Source of the DNA: Natrinema versiforme
GTDB taxonomy: Archaea > Halobacteriota > Halobacteria > Halobacteriales > Natrialbaceae
Direction of reading: 5' to 3'
NCBI RefSeq assembly: GCF_005576615.1
Contig: NZ_CP040330.1
Span: 2,976,001-3,040,000, forward strand
DNA: 64,000 nt
Numbering within the stretch: the first letter of the stretch is position 1; each line of letters opens with the position of its first letter. The notes under the pieces were generated by a model. The model saw only the letters and a program-made list of their open reading frames with translations. It searched no databases and had not been told where the DNA came from. A program made the translations under genes and the position numbers. Shown piece by piece: positions 18,837 through 53,318 of this stretch.

Positions 18837-20204
18837 TTAGGCTTCGCTCTCGTTCGCGGAGTCGTCCTCGGTGATTTCGATGTCCGTGTCGTTGTCGTCG
18901 GTTTCGTTATCGTCAGTGTCCGTCTCGTTCATCTCGTCGTCAGACGCCATCGAATCGTCGCTCTCGATGTCCTCGAGTTCGCTCGCGTCGCCGAGCGTGA
19001 GGGTGTCACTGGTCGCGTTCTCGATCGTGATCGAGGACGCGGAGAGGTTCGAGATGGTCTCGCCGGAGCTCTCGTTACTCTCGGTGTCCATCTCGTCGGT
19101 CTCGTTGTCGTCCTCGGAGATCTCGAGATCGTCGCTTTCGTTGTCCGCGGACTCGTTGTCCTCGTCTTCGGAGATCTCGAGGTCGTCGCTCTCGTTCTCC
19201 GTCTCGTTATCGTCCGTACTAGCGCTGTCGTCCGCTTCCTCGACCGAATCGACGGTCATCGATTCGATCGTGATCTCCTCGGCGTCGAACTGCTCGATCG
19301 TAAGTTCCTCGATCTCCTGGGACTCGTTCTCGCTTTCGGTCGACTCGGTGTCGGTCGCGTTGTCGTCCTCGGAGATTTCGAGGTCGTCGCTCTCGCTCTC
19401 CGTCTCGTTGTCGGCCATCGCGGAGTCGTTCGACTCGTTGTCGTCCTCGGAGATCTCGAGGTCGTCGCTCTCGTTGTCCGCGGACTCGTTGTCTGCCATC
19501 GCGGACTCGTTGTCGGCGTCCTCACCGGCGGTCAGCTCCTCGACGGTCAGCGTCTCGACGTCCATCGTCTCGATGGTCAGGTTCTGAACCGTGACCTCGC
19601 TCGCGTTCTCGTCGATCACGGACTCGTTGCTGGAGCTTTCGGTCTCGGACTCGGTGTCGTTCTCGACCGTATCGTCGGCTTCAGCGTCGGCATCCGTGTC
19701 GGTATCCTCGGTCTCGAGGCCGTCCTCGTCGTCGGACGCGTTCATTTCATCGTCGTCGGACGCGTTCATCTCCTCGTCCGTCGACGCGTTGGCCTCACCG
19801 CCCTCTTCGAACTCCTCGAGCGAGACGCCCTCGAGCTCGAGTTGCTCGAACTGGATGTCGGAGAGGGTCACTTCCTCGCTGCTCGCGTTGGACTCGTTGT
19901 CGTCAGCGGTCTCGGTGTCGTTCGATTCGGTGTTGTTGCTCTCGAGTTCGTCCTGGAGTTCCGCGACATCAGCGTCGAACTCCTCGACGTTCAACTCCTC
20001 GATCGTCGCGTTCTCGACCGTGACGTTCTCGAGTTCGAGTGTCTCGACCTGTACGTTCTCGAGCGTCGCGCTCGATTCCGATTCGCCCATGTCTCCGGCG
20101 TCGTCGCCAGCGCCCGCTGTCGCACCGGCGAGGGCAGGACCCCCCGAAAGTGCGACCAGCAGCGCGACGAACACAACGCCAACTTTCTGCGGTCGTGAAA
20201 CCAT
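18837..20204 (-). CDS. Secreted acidic protein with five period-5 blocks (paralog A)
   Basis: A 455-aa exported protein beginning MVSRPQKVGVVFVALLVALS with a Sec signal and cleavage near residue 30. The mature chain is extremely acidic, rich in Asn, Ser, Asp and Glu, with dozens of N-x-S/T sequons. Five blocks of about 25 residues follow a strict pentad, for example LENVQ VETLE LENVT VENAT: aliphatic at positions 1 and 4 and Thr/Glu/Asp at position 5, as in pentapeptide-repeat beta-helices. Linkers repeat ESDDLEISED four times. There is no C-terminal anchor. A paralog is at 50872-52101. Function unknown; cell-surface or extracellular matrix is inference. Confidence 0.85.
   Translation of the reverse strand: MVSRPQKVGVVFVALLVALSGGPALAGATAGAGDDAGDMGESESSATLENVQVETLELENVTVENATIEELNVEEFDADVAELQDELESNNTESNDTETADDNESNASSEEVTLSDIQFEQLELEGVSLEEFEEGGEANASTDEEMNASDDDEMNASDDEDGLETEDTDTDADAEADDTVENDTESETESSSNESVIDENASEVTVQNLTIETMDVETLTVEELTAGEDADNESAMADNESADNESDDLEISEDDNESNDSAMADNETESESDDLEISEDDNATDTESTESENESQEIEELTIEQFDAEEITIESMTVDSVEEADDSASTDDNETENESDDLEISEDEDNESADNESDDLEISEDDNETDEMDTESNESSGETISNLSASSITIENATSDTLTLGDASELEDIESDDSMASDDEMNETDTDDNETDDNDTDIEITEDDSANESEA
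19111..19473 (-). repeat. Four copies of a 30-bp coding repeat (ESDDLEISED)
   Basis: Near-identical 30-mers at 19111-19140, 19165-19194, 19366-19395 and 19444-19473 encode the same acidic decapeptide. Flanking bases coding DNESADNE are also repeated between copies one and four. They lie in the linkers between period-5 blocks and could support slippage or recombination. Confidence 0.8.
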
Positions 20205-20553
20205 GCGCTCTCCCCTACCCCCGGATCCGGGCTAAAACGAGGCGACTGTTACAGGATTATCTCGGAGAAAACCAGTGTTGGAACCGTGCAACGGTCTCTA
20301 ATCTCCGGTTCATCTGTCGCGATCGATGACGATCACAGCCGTCAGGAAGAACGCATTTCCGTGCCGCGATATGGCGCTCATCACGACGGACGAATGCCGT
20401 GCTTGTGGCTGCCGGGATCGCATCGGCGAACGGGACAGAACGGGGCGTTTATCGGTTCTATCAGCCACTGACGCCCGTCCGATCGCCGCGTCTCAGCCGG
20501 ACGGTCGGTCGAAATCCGTCATGACTTACGTCGGACAATCCAACACGCGGTCA
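20205..20553. other. Divergent intergenic region, acidic protein A / tgtA
   Basis: About 350 bp with no supported gene. The end near the acidic protein has the 44-nt element described separately. On the tgtA side there is GTTTATCGG near 20447. tgtA may start at 20521 instead of 20554, which would shorten the gap. Confidence 0.5.
20230..20273 (-). promoter_or_regulatory. Upstream element shared by the two acidic-protein paralogs (copy A)
   Basis: On the minus strand it runs from GGTTTTCTCCG through ATAAT and GTAACAGTC to CGTTTTAGCC and ends 26 nt before the ATG at 20204. The region 50803-50846 matches it at 37 of 44 positions without gaps. CGTTTTAGCC lies at the spacing expected for a TATA box of a leaderless message. 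The conserved upstream half suggests a regulator site. Confidence 0.7.
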
Positions 20554-22985: not shown

Positions 22986-24989
22986 CTACGTTCGCTGTCG
23001 GAGGACGAGCGCCGTCAGCAGTCCGGCGATCGCGGCGAGTCCGACGCCGGCACCGAAGCCGGGAATGCTTTCGGACTCTTCCTCTTCAGTCGTTTCGCCG
23101 CTCTCGGCAGAGAGCCCGAGGTAGTTGCGCATTTCGGTGGTGTCAGGTTCGGGGAACTCCTCGTCCCAGTCGCCGGCCTGCCGGACGGTCGTCTCGGAAT
23201 CGACCACGCCGAGGTGCTCGATGTCCGATTTGGTCGCCGACTCGGTGTCGACATCGCCCATATCGTCGACGTGGACGTACATGGACGTGTTCCCATCGGT
23301 CGTTTCGGTTGCGATTCCGCCGATGCCGACGGTACTACTGAGGCTGTCCGCGACCTTGCTCATGTTATCGAACTTCGCGCCACCTTCGACGCGAACCGTG
23401 TCGTCGGTGAGGCTGGCATCGACGCGGGCGACCTCGAGTTCGGAGTCGGCGAGCGTCGAGACGAACTGGTCCGCCTCGGAGGACGACGATGTCGTCGGCC
23501 CGGACTGAGCGGACTGGGCCATCGATTCGAGCGCCTGACTGGCCAGATCCTGTGCCTCGACGTCAAACTGTCCGTCGACCGCGAGCTCGTCGCCGTCGGT
23601 TTCAGCCGTCAGACTGAACGTGACGTCGTTCGGGGTCTCGACGCCTCTGGACTCGAGTTCGTCGATGTAGGCGACCCAGTTTTCGGTGTCGCTCGTGAGT
23701 TCGGCATCGAGCTGGAGTTCGTCGTTCGATGTCTGCTCGACTGTGGCGTCCCACTCGAGTTCCCACGTGAGGTCCGCCGCCTGCTGTGCCTCGAGGGAGG
23801 TTCGGGCGTCCTCGATGTCGGACTGGTTCAGCGCGTCGTTCATCTCGGCCGATTCGGCCAGATCGAGCATGGCGAGGGAGAGTTCGTCGTAGTTCGCGAG
23901 CGCGAACTCCCACTCGATGTCGATCGAGCCGTCGCTCTCGCTCATCGTGAACTCGGCGGTCTCGATCTCGAGGTCGGTGACGCTGGTCGCGATCTCTTCG
24001 GCTTCCGACCGACTCAGGTCCATCGACTGGTCGTTTGCCAGCGTGTCCGTGAGTTGCTCTTCGATTCCGTCATCGATTCCGGTGTACTCGACCGTGAAGT
24101 CGATCTCGAGGCGATCCTCTCCGGTCGATCGCTCCTCGTAGTTGTAGTTCGTGATCTCGATAGTGCTCGTTCCGCCCAGGCGAGTTGCGAGGTCGCCGTA
24201 CTGGCGCTGGAGGGTCTGTTTGGCCTGCTCTCGAGTCTCCCAGTCACCGGATTGGAAGTCGGCGAGATTGCGCTCCCGGGAGACGTCCACGGTGTAGCCG
24301 TCGCTCGTGTCCTGCAGGGAGACGTCCATGTACGTTCCAGTATCGCTGGACGCCATTGGGTCGTCGACGGAAACGCTGCCCGCCGTCTCGAGGCGGTCCG
24401 TCGTAGCGGTCACGTAGCCGCTCGTGCTGACTGCGCCGGTGGACGTGGCGTCGCTCTCGAACGTGCCAGTGGCGGTCGCATCGAACTCGTTCGTCTCGTC
24501 GGAGACCTCACCGGAGACATCGACGGAGAGATCTTTGATGTCCTCCGGTTGCTGCATGACGAGGGACCCGTCACCGGAGAACCCTTGCTGATCGAGGATC
24601 GCCGAGAAGTTCGCCTCCTCGATATCCTCGACGCTGTCGTCATCCTCGATGTCGTCGACGACCAACATGTGGACCAGCCCTTCGCTGGCGTTCATACCCA
24701 GCTTGAACTGGTTGATATCCGAGTCCTCGTCGTCGTATCGGAGGACGGCGCTCCCGTCGTCACGGAGGTACACTTCGTCGGCCGGGTCGAGTTCCGATTC
24801 CGCCTGCGAGATCGTCTCGTACGATTCGACATCGGCAGTGTCCGTCGCTTCGGCGGTCGTCGTCATGCCGCCGTAGACGACCGGCAGCCCCATCGACGCG
24901 ATGCCGACGGCTGCGACCAGCAGGAGGGCGAGGAAGGCTCTGCTGGCGTCGGTCGATTGTCGTCTCGAGTCTGTTGAATCCGATGGCAT
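22986..24989 (-). CDS. Secreted surface protein with PGF-CTERM anchor
   Basis: A 667-aa exported protein. The N-terminus has a positively charged stretch then FLALLLVAAVGIASMGLPVVYG (signal or anchor, residues 18-40). The body is acidic, rich in Thr, Ser and Asp, with beta-strand-like repeats and a helical region (about 350-420). The C-terminus is EEEESES, then PGFGAGVGLAAIAGLLTALV and a basic end LRQRT, the tripartite PGF-CTERM signal cut by archaeosortase A and lipid-linked. No catalytic domain recognised. It lies upstream of and divergent from arcS. Confidence 0.85.
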   Translation of the reverse strand: MPSDSTDSRRQSTDASRAFLALLLVAAVGIASMGLPVVYGGMTTTAEATDTADVESYETISQAESELDPADEVYLRDDGSAVLRYDDEDSDINQFKLGMNASEGLVHMLVVDDIEDDDSVEDIEEANFSAILDQQGFSGDGSLVMQQPEDIKDLSVDVSGEVSDETNEFDATATGTFESDATSTGAVSTSGYVTATTDRLETAGSVSVDDPMASSDTGTYMDVSLQDTSDGYTVDVSRERNLADFQSGDWETREQAKQTLQRQYGDLATRLGGTSTIEITNYNYEERSTGEDRLEIDFTVEYTGIDDGIEEQLTDTLANDQSMDLSRSEAEEIATSVTDLEIETAEFTMSESDGSIDIEWEFALANYDELSLAMLDLAESAEMNDALNQSDIEDARTSLEAQQAADLTWELEWDATVEQTSNDELQLDAELTSDTENWVAYIDELESRGVETPNDVTFSLTAETDGDELAVDGQFDVEAQDLASQALESMAQSAQSGPTTSSSSEADQFVSTLADSELEVARVDASLTDDTVRVEGGAKFDNMSKVADSLSSTVGIGGIATETTDGNTSMYVHVDDMGDVDTESATKSDIEHLGVVDSETTVRQAGDWDEEFPEPDTTEMRNYLGLSAESGETTEEEESESIPGFGAGVGLAAIAGLLTALVLRQRT

Positions 24990-50428: not shown

Positions 50429-50871
50429 CCCGCGGGGGGTGCTCCGACGCAGTTTCGAGCGACCGACGAGCTATCGCGTTCGACACCGAGAGCCACCGTC
50501 TCTCTTCTTCCAGCCGCCCGTATCGGCGGGCTCGAATCGATCGCCACCCGAACGAGTCCGGGCCTCGAGCCTCGCGTTCTCTTTCGGGGCGGAAATAGAT
50601 GCTTTTCGCCGCTCGAGAGCGGTAACGGGCCGCTGAGACGAGCGCTTCGAGATGACGTGTGACCCAGTTACTCGTGACACGGGGACTACGCGCCGATACC
50701 GGTGTGGGTCGCAGAGCGGGATCGCGGCGGTTGCACACTGATCGCAGCGCAACGTCCAATACTGGATCGGCCGCGAACGGTTTTCCTCGAGTCCACAACG
50801 GCGGTTTTCTCCGCAATAATGTCGTAACAGTCTCCCCGTTTTAGCCGCGCGACGGCCGTACCTCGGCGCGT
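50429..50871. other. Intergenic stretch upstream of acidic protein B
   Basis: About 440 bp. The last 70 bp hold the shared 44-nt upstream element (50803-50846). The rest has no frame with coding character; TTTTCCTCGA and TTTTCTCCGC (50780-50813) form a loose direct repeat. Confidence 0.5.
50803..50846 (+). promoter_or_regulatory. Upstream element shared by the two acidic-protein paralogs (copy B)
   Basis: The sequence runs from GGTTTTCTCCG through ATAAT and GTAACAGTC to CGTTTTAGCC and ends 25 nt before ATG 50872. It matches 20230-20273 (minus strand) at 37 of 44 positions with nearly the same spacing to the start. The CGTTTTAGCC end occupies the TATA position. Confidence 0.7.
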
Positions 50872-52101
50872 ATGGTTTCACGACCGCGAACTATCGGTGT
50901 CGCGTTCGTCGCGGTGCTGGTCGCGCTTTCGGGGGGTCCCGCCCTCGTCGGCGGAGCGACCACGGCCGCGACCGACGACACCGGAGACATGAGCGATGCG
51001 AGCGCAACGCTGGAGAACGTACAGGTCGAGACGCTCGAACTCGAGAACCTCACGATTCAGAACGTCACGATCGAGGAACTCAACGCCGGGCAGTTGGATA
51101 TTCAAGACAGCGAGGAACTCGAGGACGAACTGAACGAGACGGAGGACAACGAGTCCGCGGATACCGAATCCGCTGAGAACGAGTCCACGGACAACGAATC
51201 CGCGGCGGGCGACAACGAGTCCGCGGATACCGAATCCGCTGAGAACGAGTCCACGGACAACGAATCCGCGGACACCGAGGTCACGATTTCGAACGTCGGC
51301 CTCGAGTCGCTCGTCCTCGAGAACGTCTCGATCGACGACCTCGGGACGGACGGCGGCATGGACGGTGCAAACGAGAGCGACGATGGCGATAACGAGAGCG
51401 ACGCCGACGGGAACGAATCGTCGTCCGATATCGAGCAACTGATCGGCGAGGACGCCGACAACGCGACGGTCCAGAACATGACAATCGAGTCCATGAACAC
51501 CGATCAGTTGACGATCGAGGACCTCACCGTCGACGAAGACGAAGGGGGCATCCTCTCGGGTATCTCCGACTTCATCGGCGGACTGTTCGGCGACGGTGAC
51601 GGCGGTGATGGTGACGGCGGCGACGGCGAAACGAACGAGAGCGACTCCGACAACGCCAGCTCCGAAGCGATCGAGTCCCTGACCATCGAGGAGTTCGATC
51701 TCGACGAGCTCACGTTCGAATCGATGACCGTCGGTACCCTCGAGAGCCAAGAGGGTGGTACCGAGACGGGTGACGTGAACGCGGCGGCCGACAACGAAAC
51801 CGCCGATAACGAGACCGGCGAAGACGCCAACGCGACCGACGAGAACGAAACCGACGGCGGCAACGAGACCGCCGCGGACGGTGCGATGAACGAAACTGCT
51901 GCCGACACCGACGGCGAGACGATCTCGTCGCTCTCCGGCGGGACGATGACCGTCGAAAACGGCAACGCGGACACCGTTACTCTCGGCGAAACGGAGGGAC
52001 TCACGGAATCGCTCGAGCAACAGCAGACCGACGGCAACGAGTCGACAAACGAGAGCGCGAACGAGACCGGGAACGAAACCGGAAACGAGAGCGACGGCTG
52101 A
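50872..52101 (+). CDS. Secreted acidic protein with five period-5 blocks (paralog B)
   Basis: A 409-aa exported protein beginning MVSRPRTIGVAFVAVLVALS, nearly identical over the signal peptide to the 18837-20204 protein. Five pentad blocks follow in the same order: LENVQ VETLE LENLT IQNVT IEELN; ISNVG LESLV LENVS; VQNMT IESMN TDQLT IEDLT; IESLT IEEFD LDELT FESMT; and ISSLS GGTMT. Linkers are Asn/Glu/Asp-rich with many NES and NET sequons. A Gly/Asp-rich insert with a hydrophobic patch (ILSGISDFIGGLFG) is unique to B. It ends ETGNETGNESDG without an anchor. Confidence 0.85.
   Translation: MVSRPRTIGVAFVAVLVALSGGPALVGGATTAATDDTGDMSDASATLENVQVETLELENLTIQNVTIEELNAGQLDIQDSEELEDELNETEDNESADTESAENESTDNESAAGDNESADTESAENESTDNESADTEVTISNVGLESLVLENVSIDDLGTDGGMDGANESDDGDNESDADGNESSSDIEQLIGEDADNATVQNMTIESMNTDQLTIEDLTVDEDEGGILSGISDFIGGLFGDGDGGDGDGGDGETNESDSDNASSEAIESLTIEEFDLDELTFESMTVGTLESQEGGTETGDVNAAADNETADNETGEDANATDENETDGGNETAADGAMNETAADTDGETISSLSGGTMTVENGNADTVTLGETEGLTESLEQQQTDGNESTNESANETGNETGNESDG
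51145..51271 (+). repeat. Perfect 61-bp tandem duplication, 66-bp spacing
   Basis: The 61 bases at 51145-51205 recur exactly at 51211-51271. The period is 22 codons, so the frame is kept and the acidic linker is lengthened by one unit. Perfect identity in a coding region suggests a recent duplication. Confidence 0.85.
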
Positions 52102-53038: not shown

Positions 53039-53042
53039 ATCC

Positions 53043-53318
53043 ATGGACCAGCTAACTGGCTTCCAGCGAGACCTGTTGTACGTGATCGCAGGGAAAGACC
53101 GGCCGTCAGGGCAGGAGATTCTCGACGACATCAATAGCTACATCGATCAGCCGGTCACGCACGGCCGTCTGTATCCGAATCTCGACACGCTCGTCGAGAA
53201 AGAACTCGTCGAGAAAGGCGAGCTCGACCGACGGACGAACTACTACGCGCTGACGCCGAAGGGCCGACGCGCGCTGCAGCGCCGCCAGGAGTGGGTCGAC
53301 CAGTACGTCGACGTCTGA
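53043..53318 (+). CDS. PadR family transcription regulator
   Basis: A 91-aa winged-helix protein: LTGFQRDLLYVIAGKDRPSGQEILDDINSYIDQPVTHGRLYPNLDTLVEKELVEKGELDRRTNYYALTPKG. This is the PadR N-terminal domain without the usual C-terminal dimer helix bundle, as in the short haloarchaeal form. No ligand site is visible. Its targets are unknown. Confidence 0.9.
   Translation: MDQLTGFQRDLLYVIAGKDRPSGQEILDDINSYIDQPVTHGRLYPNLDTLVEKELVEKGELDRRTNYYALTPKGRRALQRRQEWVDQYVDV

Follow-up and report, generated by a model that had tools for sequence, protein, structure and literature searches.

The pentapeptide-repeat proteins (PRPs; MfpA, Qnr, HetL, Rfr23, Rfr32, and the Pfam Pentapeptide clan) are the described proteins closest to the family reported here. 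The two have in common an exact period of five, paired inward hydrophobic positions i-2 and i, beta coils and helical caps (both predicted in our family), and loops between coils. PRPs tolerate such loops, with a 24-residue insertion in Rfr23 and loops in QnrB1, AlbG, and HetL, and the solved PRPs described in the same source are without an insertion at every coil boundary (PMC8145042). The luminal domain of SV2C is a five-coil pentapeptide beta-helix for which N-glycosylation has been reported (PMC8145042). It resembles the solenoid that we propose for our family in having about five coils, in being extracytoplasmic, and in that reported glycosylation; however, it is a transporter domain without bristles (the long disordered segments that in our proposal leave the rod between coils), and no sequence relation to it was found. 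HVO_2160 of Hfx. volcanii is a heavily N-glycosylated secreted protein with 19 confirmed sites (PMC8241124). Our protein is secreted and has many sequons like HVO_2160 and, by description, halomucin, whose functions are unknown or surface protection. Unlike our protein, HVO_2160 has an ArtA (archaeosortase) signal and, by its description, is the largest protein of Hfx. volcanii. Haloarchaeal S-layer glycoproteins are also exported and acidic, and our protein is probably glycosylated as they are. In contrast to them, it is small, half or more disordered, and without a PGF-CTERM/archaeosortase signal or an S-layer domain.

The window (the whole 64,000-nucleotide stretch of DNA that was analyzed) comes from a Natrinema-group haloarchaeon, with N. 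versiforme, N. zhouii, and others as named relatives in the homologue search. It holds two copies of a five-block protein, A and B (Table 1). The copy A open reading frame runs exactly from its ATG to its stop codon and opens with a predicted Sec-type signal peptide that has neither a Cys nor a twin Arg. In the mature chain, 40% of the residues are D or E, while K, R, H, C, W, and Y are absent altogether. This absence speaks against most enzyme chemistries and suggests that copy A is non-catalytic. With 33 sequons in addition, copy A is the extremely acidic, exported, sequon-laden chain that the preliminary description had seen. What that description observed held throughout; copy B and the promoter element common to the two genes were not part of it. 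The surface-layer role offered there found no support. Neither window copy has a PGF-CTERM, a lipobox, or a TM anchor, and the conserved hydrophobic N terminus is the sole TM-like stretch of the family proteins. A test of copy A for an archaeosortase-type anchor was likewise negative: the C terminus is an acidic tail, and the mature chain has no TM-like stretch and no Cys. Copy A had no match in the Pfam, NCBIfam, and PDB sequence libraries, and no description of the five-block family was found in the open-access literature searched. The family, which the first reading had not recognized among described ones, is undescribed in these libraries and papers; no curated family covers copy A.

The pattern h-x-x-h-x repeats with period five in five blocks of copy A, where it takes the form aliphatic-E-N/E-aliphatic-T/D. 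In the usual PRP register, the family has V/L/I/M/A at i-2, T/S/D at i-1, V/I/L at i, E at i+1, and N/E/T at i+2. Pentad runs at residues 48 to 77, 114 to 133, 201 to 225, and 298 to 322 of copy A far exceeded shuffle scores for the mature chain. The total pentad score was 14.5, whereas 2,000 shuffles averaged 0.00 and peaked at 2.40, and aliphatic autocorrelation peaked at lags 5, 10, and 15 (z of 6.4, 5.1, and 4.1). The pentads of block 5 (core residues 384 to 410) are weaker in copy A but clear among homologues. Across 45 homologues, V/I/L/M/F make up 90 to 100% of residues at both aliphatic positions of nearly every pentad, with Ala at some aliphatic positions of block 5. The order 1-2-3-4-5 is unchanged in all 50 complete Natrialbaceae proteins, and block length is near-invariant (the modal length in 43 to 45 of 45 homologues). 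Linkers range from 18 to 125 aa, a roughly sixfold variation. The blocks also evolve more slowly than the linkers, with dN/dS values of 0.15 and 0.23 against 0.37 and 0.32.

Table 1. Features of the five-block gene pair, in window positions (aa, residues of the encoded protein; AF2, AlphaFold2)
Feature	Position	Strand	Basis and remarks
Copy A, secreted five-block pentad protein, 455 aa	18837..20204	-	ORF, translation, homologues
Promoter element GTAACAGTCGCCTCGTTTTAGCC, 23 bp, BRE/TATA-like, 25 bp before copy A ATG	20230..20252	-	Genome scan
Predicted Sec signal peptide, aa 1 to ~28, MVSRPQKVGVVFVALLVALSGGPALAGA	20121..20204	-	Direct reading; kept in all family members
Pentad block 1, aa 46-77	19974..20069	-	Pentad scan, homologue alignment, AF2 strand 60-79; aa 46-56 conserved, low pLDDT
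Linker 1-2, opens with predicted helix 81-94; 24-73 aa in homologues	19878..19973	-	Alignment, AF2
Pentad block 2, aa 110-134	19803..19877	-	Pentad scan, homologue alignment, AF2 strand 111-133
Linker 2-3, predicted disordered, sequon-rich; 18-120 aa in homologues	19611..19802	-	Alignment, AF2, sequon count
Pentad block 3, aa 199-227	19524..19610	-	Pentad scan, homologue alignment, AF2 strand 203-226
Linker 3-4, repeated ESDDLEISEDDNES units; 34-104 aa in homologues	19317..19523	-	Translation, alignment, AF2
Pentad block 4, aa 297-323	19236..19316	-	Pentad scan, homologue alignment, AF2 strand 295-323
Linker 4-5; 19-125 aa in homologues	19062..19235	-	Alignment, AF2
Pentad block 5, aa 382-411	18972..19061	-	Homologue alignment; AF2 strand 382-404, cap helix 408-420
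Acidic C-terminal tail, without anchor	18840..18971	-	Translation, TM scan
Copy B, paralogue, 409 aa, same five blocks	50872..52101	+	Search, translation, block alignment
Same promoter element before copy B, GTAACAGTCTCCCCGTTTTAGCC	50824..50846	+	Genome scan
Amphipathic segment GGILSGISDFIGGLFG after copy B block 3	51544..51591	+	In all NUDIX-adjacent copies, in no tgtA-adjacent copy

AlphaFold2 was run on copy A (455 aa) and on the 338-aa copy B orthologue of N. mahii, whose linkers are short; both models were built on largely the same alignment. All five blocks were predicted as beta in both models (pLDDT of about 85 to 92), the linkers as disordered, and short helices followed blocks 1 and 5. 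In copy A, 255 of the 455 residues had a pLDDT below 50. The stretch from residue 46 to 56 is the most conserved, yet it was modeled with low confidence. These models, the exact five-residue period beyond all 2,000 shuffles, and the conservation of the pentads in homologues uphold the initial reading that the blocks have the i-2/i spacing of pentapeptide-repeat beta-helices, and neither of the two refuting outcomes named with that reading was observed.

The same reading had the coils strung separately on linkers, and here the models point elsewhere. The pTM values were 0.48 and 0.56, while a single block accounts for 6 to 9% of the residues and all confidently modeled ones together for 30 to 39%. 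Values this far above the share of one block imply that the blocks are placed relative to one another. Combined with the fixed block order and near-invariant block lengths, they favor one composite, interrupted beta-solenoid, predicted as one rigid body, in which the stacking is read from pTM alone. If the blocks were instead beads on a string, each would be an independent one-coil beta unit, or would fold only on a partner, with flexible linkers tethering the five. Blocks of five to six pentads (about 1.25 to 1.5 coils), linkers of up to 125 aa, and fold searches without a tower-like match are all consistent with this arrangement. However, single coils would leave hydrophobic edges exposed, block count and order are constant in the 50 proteins, unlike in independent repeats, and the pTM values need mutual block placement, and we consider the arrangement unlikely.

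Fold searches with Foldseek against PDB and BFVD gave no significant match for the proposed interrupted solenoid; its long insertions could have defeated the search, or its fold may differ. With no fold match, the quadrilateral PRP fold (right-handed, four pentads per coil) is a candidate only for these models. Copy A did not match any Pfam pentapeptide model over the gathering score. In relatives, Pentapeptide_4 was sub-threshold (at best 1.9e-4 and 21.8 bits, against a cut-off of 38), and the concatenated blocks reached an E value of 0.07 with the Pfam pentapeptide models, below the cut-off. The longest contiguous run in copy A is six pentads (residues 48 to 77), with about 26 pentads summed over the five blocks. 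Family runs end at about six contiguous pentads, whereas PRPs have 8 or more. Side chains differ too: PRPs have small residues, mainly Ala, at i-2 and Leu/Phe at i, while the family has the residues given above and departs from the PRP consensus A(D/N)LXX. Canonical Phe-centred pentads were seen in one distant relative (L110) only. An insertion of 18 to 125 aa at each coil boundary, export, and a polyanionic chain further set the family apart. We also considered homology to the PDB entries 4yei, 4yc5, 5dqa, and 4yfo, which we take to be designed solenoids. The copy A matches to them (E values of 0.2 to 1) were absent with copy B, and we rejected this homology except as a lead. Taken together, the five-block family is best classed with the pentapeptide-type solenoids, pending a structure.

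Glycosylation of the linkers was the part of the preliminary description that stood in part. In the mature chain of copy A, 33 of 36 Asn residues lie in N-X-S/T, compared to 7.9 sequons expected from composition. We compared neutral-brine species with a soda-lake set (Natronococcus, Natronorubrum, alkaliphilic Natrialba, Natrarchaeobius, Salinadaptatus, and others), with habitats as generally given for these taxa. S/T stood at +2 for 84% of all Asn in neutral-brine species against a background of 20%, and for 5% in soda-lake species against a background of 9%, with D/E there reaching about 50%. The exchange is site specific. At block sites 60, 65, 126, 208, and 396, Asn was present in 24, 26, 18, 19, and 14 of 27 in the neutral-brine set and in 4, 7, 5, 1, and 0 of 18 in the soda-lake set. 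There it is replaced by D, E, or T, with the +2 S/T kept at the first four sites. As a control, the non-sequon Asn residues 50 and 72 are kept in soda-lake species (14/18 and 17/18). A TgtA tree required at least five state changes, but only two independent pairs stood on well-supported branches, both in the expected direction.

On these sequence comparisons, the sequons are enriched beyond composition and under selection. Site-specific sequon loss with D/E gain suggests that they are used and that glycan and acidic residue can replace each other. Known haloarchaeal N-glycans are often acidic, as in the Hfx. volcanii tetrasaccharide with its uronic acids (PMC8241124). Loss of the transferase was rejected as the cause of sequon loss, since an STT3/AglB match was found in 116 of 125 Natrialbaceae genomes and aglB is known from the alkaliphile N. 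magadii (PMC3403918). The host genome encodes AglB, and Natrinema copy A is probably N-glycosylated. The linkers are thus predicted to be disordered and are sequon-rich in this species, as first described, but in soda-lake relatives D/E has taken the place of the lost sequons, so glycosylation appears not to be intrinsic to the architecture. A separate observation is that one nearly complete Natrinema genome (G018) has no detectable STT3/AglB match, yet its family copies are sequon-rich.

Copy B differs from copy A just after block 3. Every NUDIX-adjacent copy has a segment like GGILSGISDFIGGLFG or DGLLDDIGDWFDGIFG there, and no tgtA-adjacent copy does. Computed helical moments of these amphipathic segments were 0.31 to 0.39, and the AlphaFold2 model has no confident helix at this place. 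Since a distant relative (L112) also has such a segment, it is probably ancestral; in copy B, it may be a docking site for a membrane or a partner. In other genera the gene order is tgtA-A-B-NUDIX-PadR, and by synteny the adjacent A-B pair in the order tgtA-A-B-NUDIX is ancestral. The A/B tree did not resolve a single duplication. A rearrangement in Natrinema, with its breakpoint between A and B, has left the copies 31 kb apart and in opposite orientation (window 18837 to 52101). The neighbors tgtA, RaSEA, and ArcS are archaeosine genes in conserved synteny; this gave no plausible pathway link, and a functional connection through them was rejected. The window also encodes a 667-aa secreted acidic protein without a Pfam family (22986 to 24989, minus strand), with a PGF-CTERM-like tail (ESIPGFGAG...ALVLRQRT), which was seen in only two of the fetched loci.

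Both copies are preceded by a 23-bp element, GTAACAGTCNNCNCGTTTTAGCC, also written GTAACAG...CGTTTTAG, that lies 25 to 26 bp upstream of the ATG and is present within 3 mismatches in 44 of 45 homologues. Within 3 mismatches, the 4.67-Mb host genome has no sites other than the two in front of A and B. Across 125 Natrialbaceae genomes, each had 0 to 2 matches within 2 mismatches, and a reversed-pattern control gave zero. All 26 sites compared by coordinates sit directly upstream of a family member, and the genomes of groups g2 and g7, which are without the family, are also without the element. Across Natrialbaceae, the element is private to the five-block family. It looks like a BRE plus TATA with a conserved spacer, which makes either a dedicated factor or an unusual type of core promoter likely. 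As A and B have this element in common, co-production is probable and joint action possible. Beside B lies a PadR-like 92-aa winged-helix protein (53040 to 53315, plus strand), about 90 to 98% identical across many Natrialbaceae genera. A role as the dedicated regulator was not supported, because close orthologues persist in several genomes without family and element.

Such co-production would also suit a different assembly, in which edge strands pair between molecules and A with B, or many A, join end to end into beta-solenoid fibers, a functional-amyloid-like extracellular matrix with bristles. The high conservation of block 1 residues 46 to 56 despite their poor placement in the monomer, the private element common to the two genes, and the lack of a monomer fold match agree with this idea. 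Set against them are the predicted helices after blocks 1 and 5, which resemble end caps, and strong charge repulsion, and we doubt that such fibers form.

A protein search for the family found matches in 100 of 125 Natrialbaceae genomes, and all 29 genomes of the host genus (the Natrinema group) have it. When 292 genomes of the class were searched with a profile, 76 gave a match, with strong matches in Natrialbaceae and weaker ones in other haloarchaeal families. Viral and plasmid searches returned no homologues, and a viral or plasmid origin was rejected. They also bear on whether A and B could be secreted decoys or shields that keep off viruses or grazers, their glycosylated bristles having become hypervariable in an arms race. 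Linkers do differ in length and sequence between close species, and the proteins are exported and probably glycosylated, with B possibly membrane bound. However, linker dN/dS (0.32 to 0.37) carries no sign of positive selection, viral homologues were not found, the locus is syntenic and core rather than in a variable island, and the promoter element is conserved rather than diversified; we regard this role as very unlikely. Equally improbable is a mostly disordered acidic polymer with pentads as a low-complexity by-product and hallucinated AlphaFold2 beta structure, which would suit the biased composition and the 255 low-pLDDT residues but not aliphatic pentad positions conserved at 90 to 100% across about 15 genera with unrelated linkers, nor the slower evolution of blocks than of linkers.

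Returning to the interrupted solenoid, we propose that A and B are a co-expressed, Sec-exported, non-enzymatic haloarchaeal pair in which the five pentad blocks would combine into a single small parallel beta-solenoid of the pentapeptide-repeat kind, about five to six coils long. Between successive coils, the chain would leave the rod as a long disordered bristle, and the bristles and some coil faces would form a dense, anionic, hydrated brush. Its charge would come from N-glycans and D/E in neutral-brine species and from D/E alone in soda-lake species. The amphipathic segment after coil 3 probably docks B to the membrane or envelope, while A, without it, would be soluble or partnered. The pair likely serves as a surface or matrix coat in which water and cations are retained. 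For this secreted, non-enzymatic pair of brush-bearing rods with a coat function, we judge the case evenly balanced, with more confidence in the architecture than in the function. Our fuller version is more tentative. It would have a family of interrupted solenoids with a brush at each boundary, sequons and acids interchangeable with alkaline habitat, and a soluble A and a membrane-docked B building one coat under the private element.

New here are the adjacent ancestral pair with its B-specific segment, the private 23-bp element, and the soda-lake exchange of sequons for D/E. If five coils are indeed kept through long insertions at each boundary, the folding would be unusual, with disordered, glycosylated loops lying between the non-contiguous repeats that join. 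In soda-lake species, sequons have repeatedly given way to acids while the family keeps its oligosaccharyltransferase. This natural experiment could make directly testable why archaea glycosylate surface proteins, whether as a specific signal or for the sake of charge and hydration. Through the private element there is a clean entry to the regulation of A and B.

In the most distant haloarchaeal relatives, several or all of the five blocks persist and the linkers are unrelated (DNETD, DGILGDDNES, and TETPTET are examples of linker text), and some of these proteins have extra C-terminal domains. Three of these five-block relatives (L110:1103-3253, L115:994-2751, and L116:1008-2474) have a sub-threshold C-terminal CARDB/Ig-like domain. 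A 1,001-aa protein (L117:725-3727) has pentad blocks at its N terminus, after which come a TETPTE tract and four DUF7282 domains. In alkaliphilic Natrialba, copy A is enlarged to 687 and 769 aa (L065:5001-7061 and L067:5001-7307).
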